In this document: positions 32,583 through 42,326 of the stretch, piece by piece
How positions within the stretch are numbered: the first letter of the stretch is position 1
Layout: each line of letters opens with the position of its first letter
Assembly: GCA_903925005.1 (NCBI GenBank)
Contig: CAIYDX010000223.1
Span: 1 to 42,395, forward strand
Direction: 5' to 3'
Source of the DNA: an uncultured Geobacteraceae bacterium
GTDB lineage: Bacteria > Desulfobacterota > Desulfuromonadia > Geobacterales > Pseudopelobacteraceae
DNA length: 42,395 bases
Notes under the pieces: generated by a model
The model's database searches: none
The model's input: the letters and a program-made list of their open reading frames with translations, nothing else
What the model was told of the DNA's origin: nothing
Made by a program: the position numbers and the translations under genes

Positions 32583-34451
32583 ATGCATCATGGCGGAATT
32601 TACGACCAGGAAATTGCCGGCAAGGCCTACGACACCGCCCTGCTGCGGCGCTTTGCGCGCTACGTGGCGCCCTACCGGCTGTCGATCACGATCGTGGTGC
32701 TGATACTGCCGCTCGTTGCCGCCTGCCGGCTGGCGCAGCCCTGGATTATCAAACTCGCCATCGACAGTCACATCATCACCGGAAAACTGGCCGGGCTGGA
32801 AAACATAGCGCTCGGATTCCTCGGCATTCTGCTGGTTGAATCGCTCCTTTCCTTTCTGGAGGTGTATCTGCTGCAGTCGGTCGGACAGCGGGTCATGTCG
32901 GACATGCGTTCGGAGCTGTACCGTCACGTCATGCATCTCCCTGTTTCGTGGTTCGACCGCATGCCAACCGGAAGCGCGGTTACCAGACTGACCAGCGATA
33001 TCGAGGTATTGGGCGAAATGTTCGCCTCGGGCATCATCACCATCATTGGCGATATCCTGCTATTGATCGGCATTATCTCCGTCATGCTCTGGATGGACCT
33101 GAAACTGTCGTTGGTGACATTTTCGATCCTGCCGGTACTGCTGTATGTCGCCTATACCTTCAGGCGCCGCATGAGAAAATCATTCCGGGAAGTTCGTGCC
33201 CGCCTGGGCAACCTGAATGCCTTCCTCAACGAATGCATCTCCGGCATCAGCATAATCCAGATTTTCAACCGCGAACGTGACGAAGAGCGGCGTTTCAGCG
33301 AACTGAACGCATCGTACCGCGACGCCAATATGCCGGTCATCTTCTGGGATGCCTCGCTCTATGCGATGGTCGAGGCGCTCTCATCGATCGCCGTGGCGCT
33401 GATCATCTGGTACGGCGGCGGCGAGATCGTGAAGGGGGCGCTGACCTTCGGCGTGCTGGTCGCCTTTATCCAGTATATTGAAAAGTTCTTCGCCCCGATC
33501 CGCGACCTCTCGGCCAAATACTCGGTCATGCAGGGGGCGATGGCCGCGTTGGAAAGGATATTCGCGCTGCTGGACACGCCGGAGAGGCAGGGTCAAGGAA
33601 GGCAGGGGCAAGGGGCAAGGGTCAAGGGCCAAGAAAAGACTTTAGATTCTCCCCTGGCCCCTGGACCCTGTACCCTGGACCCTAAAAAAGCCCCTGGACC
33701 CTTGACCCTTGCCCCTTTAATAGAATTCCGCGACGTCTATTTTTCCTACCAATCCGGTAACGACATCCTGAGCGGTTTCAGCCTTACGGTCCACCCCGGC
33801 GAGCAGATCGCCATCGTGGGGGAAAGCGGCGGCGGCAAAACGACCATTACCCGGCTGCTGACACGGCTGTATGAAATCGAGTGCGGCTGTATTCTGCTGC
33901 AGGGGACGGACATTCGTGATCTCGAATTGGCAGAGGTGCGCCGCCGGGTCGGCGTGGTTCTCCAGGACCCCTGCCTGTTTGCCGGAAGCATCGAATTCAA
34001 CATCTGCCTCGGTGACGAACAGGCCCGTCAGCGGGTTCGTCAGGCCGCCGCAGCGGTCGGAGCGGATCGCTTTATCGACCGGCTGCCAAACGGCTATGCG
34101 GAAGAGGTGCGGGAACGGGGGAACAACTTCTCCGTCGGCGAAAAACAGCTGATCTCATTTGCCCGCGCCGTCGCCTTCGACCCGGAGATACTCGTGCTTG
34201 ATGAAGCTACCGCCAGCATCGACAGCGCTTCGGAGCAGATGATTCAGGAGGGGATCAAGGGGATGATGGCGGGACGTACTTCGCTCGTCATCGCCCATCG
34301 CCTCTCAACCATCCGGGATGCCAACCGCATTGTTACAATCCAGCGTGGAATCAAGGTTGAAGAGGGTACGCACGAAGAGCTGCTGAACAGAGGCGGAACG
34401 TACTTCAGGCTGTATCAACTGCAGTTTGGCGAAGGCGCTGGCGGGAAGTAA
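32583..34451 (+). CDS. ABC exporter, fused permease and ATPase (MsbA/MdlB type)
   Basis: A 622-residue half-transporter. Residues 1-330 are a six-helix type 1 exporter domain and about 380-615 the ATPase: Walker A GESGGGKTTITRLL, Q-loop VVLQDPCLF, signature FSVGEKQLISFARAVAF (an FSVGE variant of LSGGQ), Walker B ILVLDEATASID and H-loop IAHRLST. It should work as a homodimer exporting lipids, drugs or peptides. The linker between the two domains is abnormal: about 44 residues (335-378) rich in G, Q, K and then P and L, encoded by an in-frame palindromic repeat. Removing it would restore a normal linker. The start ATG lacks a good Shine-Dalgarno. Confidence 0.9.
   Translation: MHHGGIYDQEIAGKAYDTALLRRFARYVAPYRLSITIVVLILPLVAACRLAQPWIIKLAIDSHIITGKLAGLENIALGFLGILLVESLLSFLEVYLLQSVGQRVMSDMRSELYRHVMHLPVSWFDRMPTGSAVTRLTSDIEVLGEMFASGIITIIGDILLLIGIISVMLWMDLKLSLVTFSILPVLLYVAYTFRRRMRKSFREVRARLGNLNAFLNECISGISIIQIFNRERDEERRFSELNASYRDANMPVIFWDASLYAMVEALSSIAVALIIWYGGGEIVKGALTFGVLVAFIQYIEKFFAPIRDLSAKYSVMQGAMAALERIFALLDTPERQGQGRQGQGARVKGQEKTLDSPLAPGPCTLDPKKAPGPLTLAPLIEFRDVYFSYQSGNDILSGFSLTVHPGEQIAIVGESGGGKTTITRLLTRLYEIECGCILLQGTDIRDLELAEVRRRVGVVLQDPCLFAGSIEFNICLGDEQARQRVRQAAAAVGADRFIDRLPNGYAEEVRERGNNFSVGEKQLISFARAVAFDPEILVLDEATASIDSASEQMIQEGIKGMMAGRTSLVIAHRLSTIRDANRIVTIQRGIKVEEGTHEELLNRGGTYFRLYQLQFGEGAGGK
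33585..33718 (+). repeat. In-frame palindromic element inside the ABC exporter gene
   Basis: A tandem G-rich left half (GGCAAGGGTCAAGGG units), a core with TTAGATTCTCCCCTGG at 33642-33657, and a C-rich right half (CCTGGACCC and CCCTTG units). AAGGGGCAAGGGTCAAGGG (33610-33628) is an exact inverted match of 33699-33717. It is translated in frame as KGQEKTLDSPLAPGPCTLDP and neighbours. The same core lies in hypF at 36401-36416, in the same orientation and frame. Confidence 0.75.
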
Positions 34452-34503
34452 CCAGTGTAAACACAATCCTGTTGAAGTGCATATTGCATCTGACCTGAGA
34501 ACC

Positions 34504-34518
34504 TGATACTTTGTATCA
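34504..34518. promoter_or_regulatory. Palindrome upstream of hypB
   Basis: TGATAC (34504-34509) and GTATCA (34513-34518) with a 3-base centre form a compact perfect palindrome 26 bases before the hypB start, next to AGGAG. It could be an operator for the hyp operon. The binding protein is unknown. Confidence 0.4.
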
Positions 34519-34544
34519 AAACATCGTTCCAGGAGTCTCCATCT

Positions 34545-35393
34545 ATGTGCACAACCTGCGGATGTCCCACAGCAGACCATCACCACGACCATGATCACAA
34601 ACATGGCCATCATCACGATCACAAACATGATCATGACAAAGAGCAAGAGAGCGGTCATGGGCACACACACAGCCACGATCACCCAGGCAAACACTCCCAT
34701 GATCATAAACATTCTCACCAGCATGGCCCCGAATCCGGAAAGCGGACGACCATCGCCATCGAAGAAGATATCCTGGGCAAGAACAACCGGCTGGCCGGCT
34801 TTAACCGTGCGCTTTTCAAGGAAAAGGGGATTTTTGTCCTGAATCTGGTCAGCTCCCCAGGTTCCGGCAAAACGACCCTGCTCGAACACACCCTTCGTGA
34901 CCTGTCGCACAAGCTGCGCTGCGCCGTTATCGAAGGAGATCAGCAGACCGATAACGATGCCCGGCGCATCGCCGCCACCGGAGTTCCGGTGCGCCAGATC
35001 AATACCGGCGCCGGATGCCATCTGGATGCTCATATGATCATGCACGGCACCGAAGGGTTTGACCTCGACAACCTGGATCTGCTGCTGATTGAAAATGTCG
35101 GCAATCTGGTCTGTCCGGCCGCCTTCGACCTGGGAGAACACCATAAGGTCGCCGTTCTTTCCGTTACCGAAGGGGAAGACAAGCCGCTCAAATATCCGCA
35201 GATGTTCCATAACTCGACCGTATTGCTGCTGAACAAGATCGACCTGCTGCCGCACCTCGATTTCGATGTCGAAAAATGCAAGGAGTATGCGCGCCGCGTC
35301 AGCCCCGGCATCCTCATCTTTGAAGTATCGGCCAAAACCGGCGAAGGGATGGAGGCCTGGCACAAGTGGCTGACCGAGGGAGCCGCCCGCTGA
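34545..35393 (+). CDS. hypB: Hydrogenase nickel incorporation GTPase HypB
   Basis: A 282-residue HypB. The N-terminus has the high-affinity metal motif CTTCGC (residues 2-7), then a histidine-rich nickel-storage stretch with 23 His between residues 12 and 61. The GTPase domain has the P-loop SSPGSGKTTL, the metal-site region GDQQTDNDARRI and INTGAGCHLDAHM, and NKIDLL as the base-specificity motif. It delivers nickel to the large subunit of a [NiFe]-hydrogenase, normally with HypA. hypA is not in the window. It is the first gene of hypBFCD, with AGGAG before the ATG; hypF starts inside its last codons. Confidence 0.96.
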   Translation: MCTTCGCPTADHHHDHDHKHGHHHDHKHDHDKEQESGHGHTHSHDHPGKHSHDHKHSHQHGPESGKRTTIAIEEDILGKNNRLAGFNRALFKEKGIFVLNLVSSPGSGKTTLLEHTLRDLSHKLRCAVIEGDQQTDNDARRIAATGVPVRQINTGAGCHLDAHMIMHGTEGFDLDNLDLLLIENVGNLVCPAAFDLGEHHKVAVLSVTEGEDKPLKYPQMFHNSTVLLLNKIDLLPHLDFDVEKCKEYARRVSPGILIFEVSAKTGEGMEAWHKWLTEGAAR

Positions 35394-37810
35394 TCCGTCG
35401 TCAAAGGCATATTATTCAGGGGATTGTTCAAGGGGTGGGCTTCCGCCCGTTTGTGTACCGGGTGGCGCACGAACTGGACCTGACCGGTTGGGTGCGCAAC
35501 ACTCCGGCCGGTGTCGAGATTGAAATCCAGGGGGGCACCCCCCTGCTGGATGCTTTTGAAAATTCGCTCCGGAACGACATCCCCCCCCTGGCGCACATAA
35601 CCTCCCATCTCCGCACCGATATCCCGGTTGGTGACGACAATTCTTTTACGATACTTCCGAGCGGTGACGGCGCGGCTGACATCCAGATCGCCCCGGACTC
35701 AGCCCTCTGTTCCGACTGTCTGAAGGAGCTGTTCGATCCGACCGACCGGCGCTACCGCTATCCATTCATAACCTGCACCAACTGCGGCCCCCGCTACAGC
35801 ATCATCATCGGTACCCCCTACGATCGCCCCAAAACAACCATGGCCGGTTTCCCGCTCTGCCCTGACTGTCTGCGCGAATACAAGGACCCGCTCGACCGGC
35901 GCTTCCATGCCCAGCCGATCGCCTGCCATACTTGCGGACCTCAGGTGAGTCTGCTTACTTCGTCAGGCGATGCTGTCTCCGTACGGGACGACGCGGTTTT
36001 ACAAGCCGTAGAGCTTCTTAAAAACGGCGCGATCCTGGCGGTCAAGGGGATCGGCGGCTACCACTTAGCGGTTGATGCCTGCAACAACAATGCGGTACGG
36101 CGGTTGCGGGAACGGAAGAAGCGCGACGAAAAGCCATTCGCCGTGATGGCGGCAACCATTGAAACTGCCCGAGAACTGGCGCTGATGAATGAAATGGAAG
36201 AGCGGCTGCTCTCTTCTCCAGAAGCCCCGATCGTCATAGTCAGAAAACGCCAAGACACACTGCTCTCGCCGCTGATCGCCCCAAACAATGGCTGGCTCGG
36301 CATGATGCTCCCCTACGCGCCGCTTCATCATCTGCTGTTTAAGGGGCAAAGGACTGAAATTCAGGATCAAGGGGCAAGGGGCAAGGGGCAAGAAAACACC
36401 TTAGATTCTCCCCTGGACCCTGAACCCTTGACCCTTGACCCTGTTTTTAAAGCATTAGTCATGACCAGCGGCAACATCTCCGACGAACCGGTCGCCTTCG
36501 AAGACGATGAGGCGCTGCAACGCCTTACAGGGATTGCCGATTATTTTCTGCTCCATGATCGGCCGATTCATATACGGAGCGATGATTCGGTAATGCGCGT
36601 TTTCCAGGGAAAACCGCTCTTTTATCGTCGCGCTCGGGGGTATGCTCCAAGGGCCGTTACGCTCCCCTTTACGGTGCCGCCGCTGTTGGCAACGGGAGCC
36701 GAGCTGAAGAGCGCCGTTTGTCTTGCGGACGGCAACCGCGCCGTTCTCAGCCAGCATATCGGCGACCTTCAGAACAGCTCTACATGCGACTCATTCAGTC
36801 ACACTGTTACGCATCTGTCCGAAATTTTAGAGATTCAGCCGGGGCGGGTTGCCTGCGACCTGCACCCCGATTATCTCTCGTCCCGTTTTGCCGAGGATTC
36901 CGGGTTGCCGGTGACGCACGTACAGCATCATCACGCCCATCTGGCTTCATGCATGGCCGAAAACAGCCTGGATGGCGATGTAATAGGCATAATTTTCGAC
37001 GGCACCGGCTTCGGTTCAGACGACACGATCTGGGGGGGCGAGTTTCTGGTCGGCGGGTACGATGGTTACCGGCGCGCGGGACACTTCCGACCGGTGCCGC
37101 TGCCGGGCGGGGATGCCGCCGTTCGCGAACCGTGGCGCATGGCCATGTCCTATCTGTATCAGGCACTGGGAGAAACCGCATTTACACTCGACCACCCTGT
37201 TGCCGGTTACCTGCCAGGACAAGAGCGGGCACTGTTTGCCCAGATGCTGAGGCGTGGGATCAATTCTCCGCTTACCTCCAGCTGCGGACGTCTGTTTGAC
37301 ACAGTTGCGGCGCTGCTGAATATACGACATATTGTGTCGTATGATGGCCAGGGAGCGATTGAACTGGAGGCGCTGGCGGAGATGAGTGAGGAAGAAGCAA
37401 AATCCCCCTCTGCCCTTTATGCCTCAGAGGGGACACTTTGCCAAACGGGGGAGTATCGATACAACATAGATCTCCATGAAAATGCCCCCCTCCAGCTGGA
37501 CTTTTCACCGATGTTTTCGGAGATCCTGGCCGATATCGCTGCCGGCGCCAGAACTTTCACAATCGCGCATCGCTTCCATCAGACCGTGGCCTCTGCCGCA
37601 ACGGACGTTTGCCTGCATATTGCCGGTTCAACCGGTCTTGACCGCGTTATTTTATCGGGGGGTGTTTTTCAGAATCGCCTTTTGACAGAAATGATATATA
37701 CTGCCCTGACCCAAAAGGGGCTGACCGTTTTCACCCATCGCCTTGTACCGCCCAATGACGGCGGCATCGCCCTGGGACAAGCTGCTATCGCAGGAAGGAG
37801 AACTAACTGA
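35366..37810 (+). CDS. hypF: Carbamoyltransferase HypF with an in-frame repeat insertion
   Basis: An 814-residue HypF, which with HypE makes the cyanide ligands of the [NiFe] site from carbamoyl phosphate. Domains in order: acylphosphatase (IIQGIVQGVGFRPFVYRVA), two zinc fingers (CSDCLKEL...CTNCGPRY and CPDCLREY...CHTCGPQ), a YrdC-like domain (about 215-400) and a Kae1-like carbamoyltransferase domain with VQHHHAHLASCMAE and FDGTGFGSDDTIWGGEFLVG (cited in part). About 30 extra residues (near 331-361) interrupt the YrdC-like domain between PLHHLLF and ALVMTSGNISDEP, encoded by the same repeat as in the ABC gene. Start is GTG at 35366 with GGAGG ten bases upstream, overlapping hypB by 28 bases. 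Confidence 0.95.
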   Translation: MADRGSRPLIRRQRHIIQGIVQGVGFRPFVYRVAHELDLTGWVRNTPAGVEIEIQGGTPLLDAFENSLRNDIPPLAHITSHLRTDIPVGDDNSFTILPSGDGAADIQIAPDSALCSDCLKELFDPTDRRYRYPFITCTNCGPRYSIIIGTPYDRPKTTMAGFPLCPDCLREYKDPLDRRFHAQPIACHTCGPQVSLLTSSGDAVSVRDDAVLQAVELLKNGAILAVKGIGGYHLAVDACNNNAVRRLRERKKRDEKPFAVMAATIETARELALMNEMEERLLSSPEAPIVIVRKRQDTLLSPLIAPNNGWLGMMLPYAPLHHLLFKGQRTEIQDQGARGKGQENTLDSPLDPEPLTLDPVFKALVMTSGNISDEPVAFEDDEALQRLTGIADYFLLHDRPIHIRSDDSVMRVFQGKPLFYRRARGYAPRAVTLPFTVPPLLATGAELKSAVCLADGNRAVLSQHIGDLQNSSTCDSFSHTVTHLSEILEIQPGRVACDLHPDYLSSRFAEDSGLPVTHVQHHHAHLASCMAENSLDGDVIGIIFDGTGFGSDDTIWGGEFLVGGYDGYRRAGHFRPVPLPGGDAAVREPWRMAMSYLYQALGETAFTLDHPVAGYLPGQERALFAQMLRRGINSPLTSSCGRLFDTVAALLNIRHIVSYDGQGAIELEALAEMSEEEAKSPSALYASEGTLCQTGEYRYNIDLHENAPLQLDFSPMFSEILADIAAGARTFTIAHRFHQTVASAATDVCLHIAGSTGLDRVILSGGVFQNRLLTEMIYTALTQKGLTVFTHRLVPPNDGGIALGQAAIAGRRTN
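36340..36452 (+). repeat. In-frame palindromic element inside hypF
   Basis: G-rich units (AAGGGGCAAGGGGCAAGGGG) at about 36368-36390, the core TTAGATTCTCCCCTGG at 36401-36416 and C-rich units (CCCTTGACCCTTGACCCTG) at 36425-36443. It encodes QENTLDSPLDPEPLTLDP, closely like QEKTLDSPLAPGPCTLDP in the ABC gene. The insert lies between two conserved motifs of the YrdC-like domain and keeps the frame open. Confidence 0.75.
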
Positions 37811-40547: not shown

Positions 40548-41057
40548 ATGCTTAAAAAGTCACTGTTTATCGCCGTTTCAATTCTGTTGTTGCTGGTGTC
40601 GAGCGCCTTTGGCGCGATGGACGCGAAAAAGGCCGAGGCTTTGGTGGACGACTACCTGCAGACATTAAGCAGCCTCAAACCCCACCTGACGAATTTTGAA
40701 GACACTAGCCTCACAATGGAACAAATGGATGCGGCGCTTCACCAGGCAAACGTAACGGATAATTTCCTCAAGTCGGCCTTCATGGCCGATGAATTCTACA
40801 AATCCCCCGCCATCAGCGTAAATAAGCTGCCAAAAGTTGAATATTTGGTTATCGACAATGTAACTGAACATACCGAGCAAAAGATTGGCGGTTCCAGGTT
40901 AGAGGGGGATTATTGTTTGGTTACGGTGTTGATCGTCAACAACGAAGATAAATGGAAAGTCAAGAACACGTATAAGGTCGTTATGTACCGCCTCAGTCGG
41001 AATTGGACTTTCAGGCCGCTTGATCTAAGGGTAAGTCAGATTCCCCTGAATACCTGA
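40548..41057 (+). CDS. Secreted protein of unknown function, 3' end replaced by an IS element
   Basis: Residues 1-23 are a clear signal peptide (KKSLFIAVSILLLLVSSAFG, cleavage near AFGA), so the product is periplasmic or outer-membrane linked. The mature part is short, with an initial helix (KKAEALVDDYLQTLSSLKPH) and a beta-rich end (YCLVTVLIVNNEDKWKV and NTYKVVMY); I do not recognise the family. The IS terminal repeat begins at 40984, inside codon 146. The last 24 residues of the open frame are therefore read from the IS and are not native. How much of the original 3' end is missing cannot be told. GGAG precedes the ATG. Confidence 0.7.
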   Translation: MLKKSLFIAVSILLLLVSSAFGAMDAKKAEALVDDYLQTLSSLKPHLTNFEDTSLTMEQMDAALHQANVTDNFLKSAFMADEFYKSPAISVNKLPKVEYLVIDNVTEHTEQKIGGSRLEGDYCLVTVLIVNNEDKWKVKNTYKVVMYRLSRNWTFRPLDLRVSQIPLNT

Positions 41058-42042
41058 TTTCAGGAAAGGCTTGTTGTCGTTTTTGTTTTCTCAGTTCTCT
41101 GGCTTCTTCAAGTTTCCTGTCACGCTCTTTGAATATTTCCATGTCTCTGCCGTTCAGTTTATCAGCTGGCGTCACGTAACCAATGGCGCTATGCAACCTG
41201 ACGGTGTTGTAGTGGTCTATGTACTTTTCTACTATCCTGCGGGCATCGTCAAGCGAAAGCGGGACACCCGGACGGATACATTCCGTCTTTATGGTCTTGT
41301 GGAATCGCTCCAATTTGCCGTTTGACTGCGGATAGAAGGGCGAAGTCCGTACATGAGTCATTCCGGAGATCCGGATGAATTCCTTGAAATCTTTGGCAAT
41401 GAATTGCGGCCCGTTGTCGGAAATGATCCGTGGACGGGCAGCAGGGTATTTCTCTTTGGCTCGTTCAAGGATGATTTCTACGTCTCGTTCGGTCATCTGC
41501 TCTCTGATCTCCCAATGGATGATGGAACGGCTACAACCATCCAAAAAGCTGCACAGATAATAGAATGTGCCACGGATATTGAGGTAAGAGATATCCACAT
41601 GCCAGTGGTCGTGAGGTAGCAGCGGCTGAATGAAACCGGTTCCTTTTAGAGATGGTTTGTTGTTCCACTTCTGCAACATGCCTGCTTTTGAAAGAACGCG
41701 CCAGGTACTGGAAGGACTGACAGCAACAATATCCTGATCCAGCATCATGAAGGTTAACCGCCGGTATCCCTCAAGCGGGTTGTCTATGGCGAACTTGATT
41801 ATGGCTTCTCGCTCCCAGAAGGCAAGCCAGAAATCCCGAGGGATCGGAGCGTTATGCTCGTTAACTTTTCCGTACCGCTCGATCCAGGTGTAAAATTTGC
41901 TCTTTGAGACAACCAGCCAGGAGATGAAGTGTTTCAGCGGAATCTCCGCTTTGTCGCTCCATTCCTTGGTGTAATCGACAACGGCATCTCGGATGTCATG
42001 GGGAACCCAGCTGCCGGTTAAAGCTCCCCAAGTTCTTTTTTT
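41011..42042 (-). CDS. IS3-family transposase OrfB (read through -1 frameshift)
   Basis: The DDE integrase core is plain: WHVDISYLNIRG with the first Asp, RIISDNGPQFIAKDF with the second, and SNGKLERFHKTIK with the Glu. The frame stays open upstream of the first in-frame ATGs near 41748, giving RDAVVDYTKEWSDKAEIPL, FYTWIERYG and FWLAFWEREAIIKFA. It joins the OrfA frame at a run of seven A (complement of 42036-42042). It is probably made mainly as an OrfAB fusion by -1 slippage. Its stop lies at the inner end of the left terminal repeat. Confidence 0.85.
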   Translation of the reverse strand, partial: KKRTWGALTGSWVPHDIRDAVVDYTKEWSDKAEIPLKHFISWLVVSKSKFYTWIERYGKVNEHNAPIPRDFWLAFWEREAIIKFAIDNPLEGYRRLTFMMLDQDIVAVSPSSTWRVLSKAGMLQKWNNKPSLKGTGFIQPLLPHDHWHVDISYLNIRGTFYYLCSFLDGCSRSIIHWEIREQMTERDVEIILERAKEKYPAARPRIISDNGPQFIAKDFKEFIRISGMTHVRTSPFYPQSNGKLERFHKTIKTECIRPGVPLSLDDARRIVEKYIDHYNTVRLHSAIGYVTPADKLNGRDMEIFKERDRKLEEARELRKQKRQQAFPEIRYSGESDLPLDQAA

Positions 42043-42326
42043 AGCTTGATGTGCTCCTCCATCAACTCGGAGAGCACTTCATGTTTTCTGATCAACTTGG
42101 CTTCAAGCTGTTGGATTTTAACTTCCTCAACACGCTTTTGAGGCCGGTCTTCACGGGTAAATGCTGCGGCTCCGTTCTCGAAAAACTGCTTCTGCCAGAT
42201 ATAAAAGATCTTCGGCTGAAGCTGATACTCGTCACACAGGTCGGATACAGCAATATGTTCGACCAGGTGACGCCGTAAAATGGAAACCTTTTCTTCTGGG
42301 GTGTAATTGTGACGTTTCTTCCGCAT
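42018..42326 (-). CDS. IS3-family transposase OrfA
   Basis: A 102-residue DNA-binding protein. A helix-turn-helix (EKVSILRRHLVEHIAVSDL and PKIFYIWQKQFF) is followed by a coiled coil (VKIQQLEAKLIRKHEVLSEL) typical of OrfA, which recognises the IS ends and dimerises. Seven A before GAACTT near its 3' end form the slippery site for -1 frameshifting into OrfB. Its start is near the right terminal repeat. Confidence 0.87.
   Translation of the reverse strand: MRKKRHNYTPEEKVSILRRHLVEHIAVSDLCDEYQLQPKIFYIWQKQFFENGAAAFTREDRPQKRVEEVKIQQLEAKLIRKHEVLSELMEEHIKLKKELGEL

Follow-up and report, generated by a model that had tools for sequence, protein, structure and literature searches.

Heptamer-armed palindromic elements in frame in protein genes of a Geobacteraceae genome

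Palindromic inserts in an ABC exporter gene and hypF

The analysed stretch, termed the window here, comprises 42,395 nucleotides of an uncultured Geobacteraceae bacterium (GenBank assembly GCA_903925005.1, contig CAIYDX010000223.1, positions 1 to 42,395) and contains a palindromic element in two protein genes, an ABC exporter gene and hypF. The source genome, labelled G000, is a draft of 5.42 Mb in 419 contigs with a completeness of 94.88%. The best matches of its HypF are records titled Geobacter, Geobacteraceae, Desulfuromonadaceae or Deltaproteobacteria, not members of the Rickettsia lineage. The two genes and the parts of the two copies are located as follows.

32583..34451, + strand: ABC exporter gene with ABC_membrane and ABC_tran domains (open reading frame, Pfam), hosting copy 1 in the domain linker
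33585..33718, + strand: copy 1 of the palindromic element, encoding QGQGRQGQGARVKGQEKTLDSPLAPGPCTLDPKKAPGPLTLAP
33588..33633, + strand: left arm of copy 1, AGGGKCA-type heptamers, the first units degenerate
33642..33657, + strand: core of copy 1, TTAGATTCTCCCCTGG, comprising the element centre and the first bases of the right arm
33656..33683, + strand: first right arm of copy 1, TGGACCC-type heptamers
33691..33716, + strand: extra right arm of copy 1 after an A-run; the same-site copy of the relative L066 has no extra arm
35366..37810, + strand: hypF, encoding carbamoyltransferase HypF (open reading frame, Pfam), hosting copy 2 in the YrdC-like domain
36340..36452, + strand: copy 2 of the palindromic element, encoding KGQRTEIQDQGARGKGQENTLDSPLDPEPLTLDP and the next residues
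36341..36392, + strand: left arm of copy 2, AGGGGCA-type heptamers, the first units degenerate
36401..36416, + strand: core of copy 2, TTAGATTCTCCCCTGG
36415..36442, + strand: right arm of copy 2, TGACCCT-type heptamers

The first-pass annotation had described one palindrome with a common core in both genes, on the same strand and in the same frame, and this description was confirmed: the inserts share strand and frame, 70 of 81 bases are identical in an ungapped alignment, and both host open reading frames (ORFs) are unbroken (622 aa in the ABC exporter, 814 aa in HypF). The core TTAGATTCTCCCCTGG has two matches without mismatches in the window, both on the + strand, and no others when three mismatches are allowed (0.29 expected); in the whole genome, with one mismatch allowed, only these two copies were found. 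Matches to the heptamer pair (up to two mismatches) number 11 in the window, with 0.22 expected, and all lie within the two inserts. When the centres of 34 copies were aligned, the ABC and HypF copies paired best with one another (score 48), the next-best scores being 36 for the ABC copy and 24 for the HypF copy. Judged by sequence, both inserts represent one palindrome and are sister copies, so that their identical frame does not represent two independent events.

Both copies fold to a long stem, with energies of -66.3 kcal/mol for the ABC copy (z -2.87) and -41.1 kcal/mol for the HypF copy (z -2.24; 200 shuffles each). For the HypF insert, z is only -1.7 when the limits are shifted slightly and 60 shuffles are used; therefore its folding alone is not outstanding. 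A palindrome of about 100–150 bp with a long stem-loop, a feature of Rickettsia palindromic elements, is present in both window copies, as are terminal inverted repeats, a feature of miniature inverted-repeat transposable elements.

The insertion places had been proposed as tolerant ones, in agreement with the Pfam limits, which set the ABC copy in the linker between the membrane domain (residues 37-305) and the ATPase domain (397-544) and the HypF copy, unlike the interdomain copies, inside the YrdC-like domain, where it occupies a turn. The HypF insert position corresponds to about four residues in the structure 3VTH (between 319 and 324). In an AlphaFold model of the window HypF, with a mean predicted local distance difference test (pLDDT) score of 85.7 and template modelling (TM) scores of 0.85/0.92 against 3VTH, residues 330-356 form coil with pLDDT under 50. 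The model thus predicts that HypF accommodates the insert as a disordered loop without losing its fold.

A family of heptamer-armed elements dispersed in the genome

A search of the genome for the core had been proposed as a check of the element, and its absence elsewhere as a ground for rejection. The 16-mer was indeed absent beyond the two window copies, and it was abandoned as a search key for the family; a search for the heptamers revealed a family of palindromic elements scattered across G000, and hence the absence of the 16-mer does not refute the element in substance. The diagnostic feature of the family is the heptamer arms, the 16-base core being a variant centre. In this architecture, a short centre, often CTTTRGATTCTACTT-like, is enclosed by two arms in which the heptamer is repeated in tandem, (AGGGKCA)n, one arm being inverted relative to the other; of 26 copies inspected by eye, 25 begin with AGGG and 24 terminate in CCCT. 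With up to one mismatch, G000 contains 125 + 61 matches to the heptamer pair, versus 5 + 4 to the reversed pattern. A covariance model built from 21 copies, R1, has 70 matches on both strands, counted as 35 places at E < 0.001 and one at 0.7, with 150 of 1286 first-look candidates scored. The family is patchy, since R1 matches at E <= 0.01 were found in 21 of the 39 genomes of the genus, G000 included, and none in 18 (limited candidates scored), while the exact heptamer pair is present in 11 of 58 genomes, own genome included, and absent from 47.

In the fetched stretches of G000, a hexamer-based test of both flanks placed 10 of 37 arrays inside genes and in frame, one of them (L038) doubtful on its weak score; another home-made count took 38 arrays. 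An eleventh copy missed by this test, L201, is probably intragenic too: its ORF is unbroken and contains a glycosyltransferase 21 domain, the host presumably being an HpnI-like glycosyltransferase. The intragenic hosts are the ABC exporter, HypF, CbiD (two arrays), RarA, RACo, ABC-F, MurG and UvrD. In CbiD (L039:4534-5667), the two in-frame arrays lie about 240 bases apart, and the second has no inverted partner. Besides the ABC exporter, copies lie between domains by Pfam limits in RACo (172/216), MurG (143/200), UvrD (608/700) and ABC-F (443/568). Further arrays form the ends of genes, namely, EtfA and a gene that we take to be NrdR-like.

For 26 hand-picked copies taken as intergenic, the called genes on the two sides are co-directional in 24 cases (binomial P 0.007, with 70% assumed as the expectation), and 17 copies lie within 25 bases of both neighbouring genes. 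This set includes the doubtful L038 and the single arrays L043 and L051:18189; four copies overlap a called gene end (L037:4980, L049, L051:4037 and L198), and arrays without a neighbour on both sides (L046, L200, L055) are left out. Thus many copies fill short co-directional spacers, about a quarter of those examined are in frame within genes, and several are located at domain linkers.

The tabulation of frames and orientations showed that six of the eight complete coding copies share the + orientation and the K-G-Q frame (binomial P 0.015; 0.037 without HypF). A single frame common to all coding copies was rejected, as MurG and CbiD differ and have their arms in the other orientation. A set of 25 non-coding copies, among them the doubtful L038 and a few that overlap gene ends, offers 150 combinations of orientation and frame; 44 of these are open, 14 of them being the K-G-Q frame in the + orientation; the other two frames of this orientation are open in 7 and 3 copies. 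The suggestion that the element is selected to stay open in this frame is weakly supported: most coding copies do use the K-G-Q frame, but this frame is already the one most often open in non-coding copies, and the copies are related.

Copies of the same family were found at the ABC, MurG, UvrD and ABC-F sites both in G000 and in the relative G016, seemingly the genome of L066. In L066 the ABC site is occupied by the same family, whereas the palindrome in its HypF is unrelated. The two genomes are not sisters on the tree, so that an old shared insertion, transfer and repeated insertion are all possible. On the simplest reading, the HypF copy would be younger than the ABC copy. The same-site copies retain an open frame despite base drift. 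Stretches of MurG fold to -43.7 kcal/mol in the relative versus -47.7 in G000 and those of UvrD to -53.9 versus -75.0 (flanks included, no shuffles), while the ABC insert of L066 forms a strong hairpin with z -6.3, versus -3.5 for that of the window.

These data bear on a possible role at the RNA level, in which hairpins or G-quadruplexes between cistrons or domains would be kept for tuning translation, pausing or message stability. The position of most intergenic copies in tight spacers between co-directional genes agrees with it, as do the strong folding of many inserts, the retained hairpin of L066 and the similar placement near ORFs of GGGAATC heptamers in Xanthomonas and Nostoc, as described in passages of PMC4692102. 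The alternative is nevertheless rather unlikely: one site turns over rapidly (see the next section), the MurG and UvrD stretches of the relative keep an open frame although they fold less well, disorder is predicted for the HypF peptide, and insertions do least harm in spacers and linkers anyway. On what is preserved the evidence is mixed, and we incline to a loop that is open and does no harm.

Other repeats at the HypF turn and the ABC linker of relatives

HypF and ABC loci were compared in the best 80 of 445 relatives, most of the compared genomes being metagenome-assembled genomes (MAGs) by title. Without an insert, the HypF turn consists of six codons (like ATGCGGGATAATTTTCAG) between conserved flanks. 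At least 33 bases are present in 21 of the 76 relatives from which the site could be cut out; its ends could not be placed in four loci (L100, L118, L131 and L133). On the tree, 21 of 58 rows are filled, the window included. As for distant orthologues with the same extra residues, the finding that was to speak against a repeat, most distant HypF proteins instead have a turn of about six codons.

By eye, the fillings of the HypF turn comprise TCACCCC heptamer tracts, a CCCTCTCCC...GGGAGAGGG palindrome, the window family, a GTTCAAC heptamer palindrome and a GGGGACA...TGTCCCC palindrome; L121, of a distant lineage, has its own AAATCCG heptamer tract. In the HypF of a Trichlorobacter MAG (L093:4820-4885), an in-frame GGGGACACGATACCGAAT...GTCATGTCCCC palindrome was observed, which may resemble a repeat of the type mobilised by RAYT. 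The ABC linker is filled with GTGAGGG heptamer palindromes, CAGCGGA heptamers, two GGGGAGG-type palindromes or a CCCCCTTTGACAAAGGGGG type, and many other relatives have no recognisable repeat there. Families at both sites were named by eye, with blastn used for links, and the HypF state 'A' is partly by eye for L068, L073, L074 and L075. Row-to-row differences were also found in the MurG and UvrD linkers (30 genomes each), where several rows resemble translated palindromes by eye. The CAGCGGA family is thin (3+5, 1+4, 2+0, 0+1 and 1+0 copies per genome). GTGAGGR heptamers were matched in 8 of 10 genomes, with counts that are upper bounds in two of them (reversed-pattern control 24 versus 54 and 28 versus 39). 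Long GTGAGGA arrays are present in relatives at G062:C493:2-128 (about 18 units, at the contig end) and G060:C87:44423-44572.

The frame is unbroken across the site, with no stop in it, in all 80 HypF loci and in 36 of 37 ABC loci, the remaining one being cut by a contig end. The divisibility of the insert lengths by three is no evidence, because the inserts were cut from codon alignments. Other Geobacteraceae carry different palindromic or heptamer sequences at the HypF turn and the ABC linker, in frame wherever readable.

Phase variation, with the host gene toggled by the gain or loss of one unit, draws on the fact that seven is not a multiple of three, so that any single-unit change breaks the frame. 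It is very improbable in view of the short and impure arms of the coding copies, the presence of MurG and UvrD among the hosts, and the lack of any off-frame allele at the 80 HypF and 36 readable ABC sites, loci chosen as best matches. An assembly artefact of metagenome bins, suggested by the prevalence of MAGs, is improbable in the extreme: in-frame inserts occur at identical sites in many independent records, among them an isolate with an insert in the ABC linker (L105, Trichlorobacter thiogenes ATCC BAA-34), and two genomes contain same-family copies at identical MurG, UvrD and ABC sites.

Turnover at the two sites was counted on trees built without the insert columns. The insert state of HypF changes at least 18 times on the 58-row tree (16 for filled versus empty alone) and, conservatively, 12 times on 51 rows after doubtful rows are dropped; that of ABC changes 13 times on a 35-row tree. 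These counts do not fix the direction of change, 18 of 55 inner branches have weak support, and recombination among lineages could raise the number of changes. Among the 47 inserts of at least 60 bases, the two of the window included, 13 fold with z < -3, versus 1 of 184 control windows in the same genes (Fisher P 3e-9), and 17 with z < -2, versus 6 of 184 (Fisher P 5e-9).

The variety of fillings could also have a local origin, through slippage and template switching within linkers that are disordered, the likeness between sites coming from favoured G-rich heptamers with no copying from site to site. The number of heptamers in the arms does vary, plain TCACCCC tracts without a partner arm occur at some HypF sites (L065, L071), the tract of the distant L121 is likewise plain, and the second right arm of the window ABC copy is absent in L066. 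Slippage is quite improbable all the same, given that the copies have in common the unit, the inverted arms and often the CTTTRGATTCTACTT-like centre, that 81 bases of the ABC and HypF copies align without a gap, and that the family is missing from many genomes of the genus.

The meeting of several families at the same codons could further mean that a small group of turns and linkers in Geobacteraceae proteins, those of HypF, the ABC exporter, MurG, UvrD and others, serve as permanent landing pads, where families replace each other like exchangeable cassettes through targeting and not through tolerance alone, for example by copying into a pre-existing hairpin or T-run. This is unlikely; were it true, housekeeping enzymes would have their disordered loops rewritten again and again by selfish repeats. 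The first codon of the site, following the conserved Leu-Leu, is TTY in 19 of 21 filled HypF sites (36337-36342 in the window), compared with 9 of 55 short ones. The TTY start could be a duplicated T-rich target or the relic of one old insertion that was later swapped.

Proposed origin and comparison with known elements

The ABC and HypF inserts are very probably sister copies of a dispersed, non-autonomous palindromic repeat that is copied and then filtered by host function. The elements would be copied to new sites by transposition or through single-stranded DNA, as suggested by the unit, arms and centre common to the copies. Only insertions compatible with host function would survive, which requires a length divisible by three, an open frame and a flexible place. 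Later, the arms would gain or lose heptamers, and the peptide would drift as a disordered loop. The HypF copy, if younger, may have been seeded from the ABC copy 2.7 kb upstream or from a common source.

Several observations weigh against this origin. No clear target-site duplication was found, the HypF flanks TTTAAG / TTTTTAAAGC being suggestive only, and no linked transposase was found: the 3.3-kb locus of the single Y1_Tnp gene detected in G000 contains no heptamer pair. The intragenic share of copies is only about a quarter, neither the RarA array nor the second CbiD array has an inverted partner, and the gene calling was home-made, with L038 counted on a weak score of 4.9 and L201 missed. 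In three other genomes, 3 of 22 arrays in the fetched stretches are intragenic, a set outside which falls the UvrD copy of the relative, missed by the array scan; another run counted 23 arrays, 2 of them intragenic, and missed the MurG copy of the relative. At the shared sites, 30 of the 47 inserts fall short of z < -2 (25 of 37 in the ABC linker and 5 of 10 in HypF) and could be ordinary linker drift. The choice of the best 80 among 445 relatives may have left broken genes under-represented. The contamination of the source draft genome is 6.16%.

RAYT genes are known to be flanked by their REPs (repetitive extragenic palindromic elements); unlike this arrangement, no heptamer pair accompanies the sole Y1_Tnp gene found in G000, and RAYT was rejected as the mobiliser. 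A GTAG or CGTC tag at one end is a defining feature of REP elements (PMC3733652), and such an end tag was seen by eye in 0 of the 26 copies printed with flanks.

Rickettsia palindromic elements, of about 105-150 bp, are found between genes and in frame in unrelated conserved protein genes (described in parts of PMC2229807, PMC3733652 and PMC10969869), and protein-coding palindromes are also known from Wolbachia. The resemblance to the Rickettsia elements that had been pointed out, in another lineage and with another sequence, was supported on comparison with these descriptions: similarly, copies lie in frame in several unrelated protein genes and others between genes. The present elements differ, by the same descriptions, in the Geobacteraceae host and the tandem-heptamer arms of varying number, and in that several different families use common insertion spots.

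In Geobacter metallireducens, heptanucleotide elements (Gmet_H4##) within and between genes, with a proposed regulatory role, are described in parts of PMC2700814. Similar to them, the present family has tandem heptanucleotides within and between genes, and CbiD here also has two arrays; the G. metallireducens unit, as given there, is GGGACCG in four tandem copies, in contrast to AGGGTCA/AGGGGCA in inverted arms around a centre. The passages of PMC2700814 on these elements contain no mention of in-frame peptides or common insertion sites. In their behaviour, the elements match the Rickettsia palindromic elements as summarised in the papers above, although they belong to another lineage and have arms built of heptamers; intragenic heptanucleotides were already known in G. 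metallireducens.

Hairpins whose sides are heptanucleotide repeats of varying copy number are reported for the P6b region of the Nostoc tRNA-Leu intron in a section of PMC3488679; they are likewise hairpins inside a gene, in a cyanobacterial intron RNA loop and not in a protein loop. The GGGAATC and GGGGAYT heptamers of Xanthomonas and Nostoc form dispersed G-rich arrays, over-represented in non-coding DNA and near ORF ends, and differ in being direct arrays that are under-represented on the coding strand within ORFs, according to passages of PMC4692102. Tandem repeats of archaeal Borgs create new disordered protein regions, as stated in a part of PMC9879509, and differ in being direct and located on extrachromosomal elements. 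No earlier report of the AGGGKCA family or of common in-frame sites in Geobacter was found in the literature searched, which covered few subscription journals.

Protein-coding palindromes are best known from intracellular bacteria, such as Rickettsia and Wolbachia, where weak selection could explain their survival; Geobacteraceae are free-living. Here, the hosts are Geobacteraceae and genes like MurG, UvrD and HypF, and several families meet at a few codons. The old question of targeted versus selection-filtered insertion thereby becomes testable by comparing many closely related genomes, and the tolerated insertions form a natural series of use to protein engineers.

Elsewhere in the window, several gene sets resembling membrane-bound hydrogenase and NADH dehydrogenase seemingly adjoin at 7658-28511, with large membrane subunits repeated (ORFs, by eye). 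At the end of the window (41011-42326), insertion-sequence ORFs, integrase-like and transposase-like by eye, were observed.
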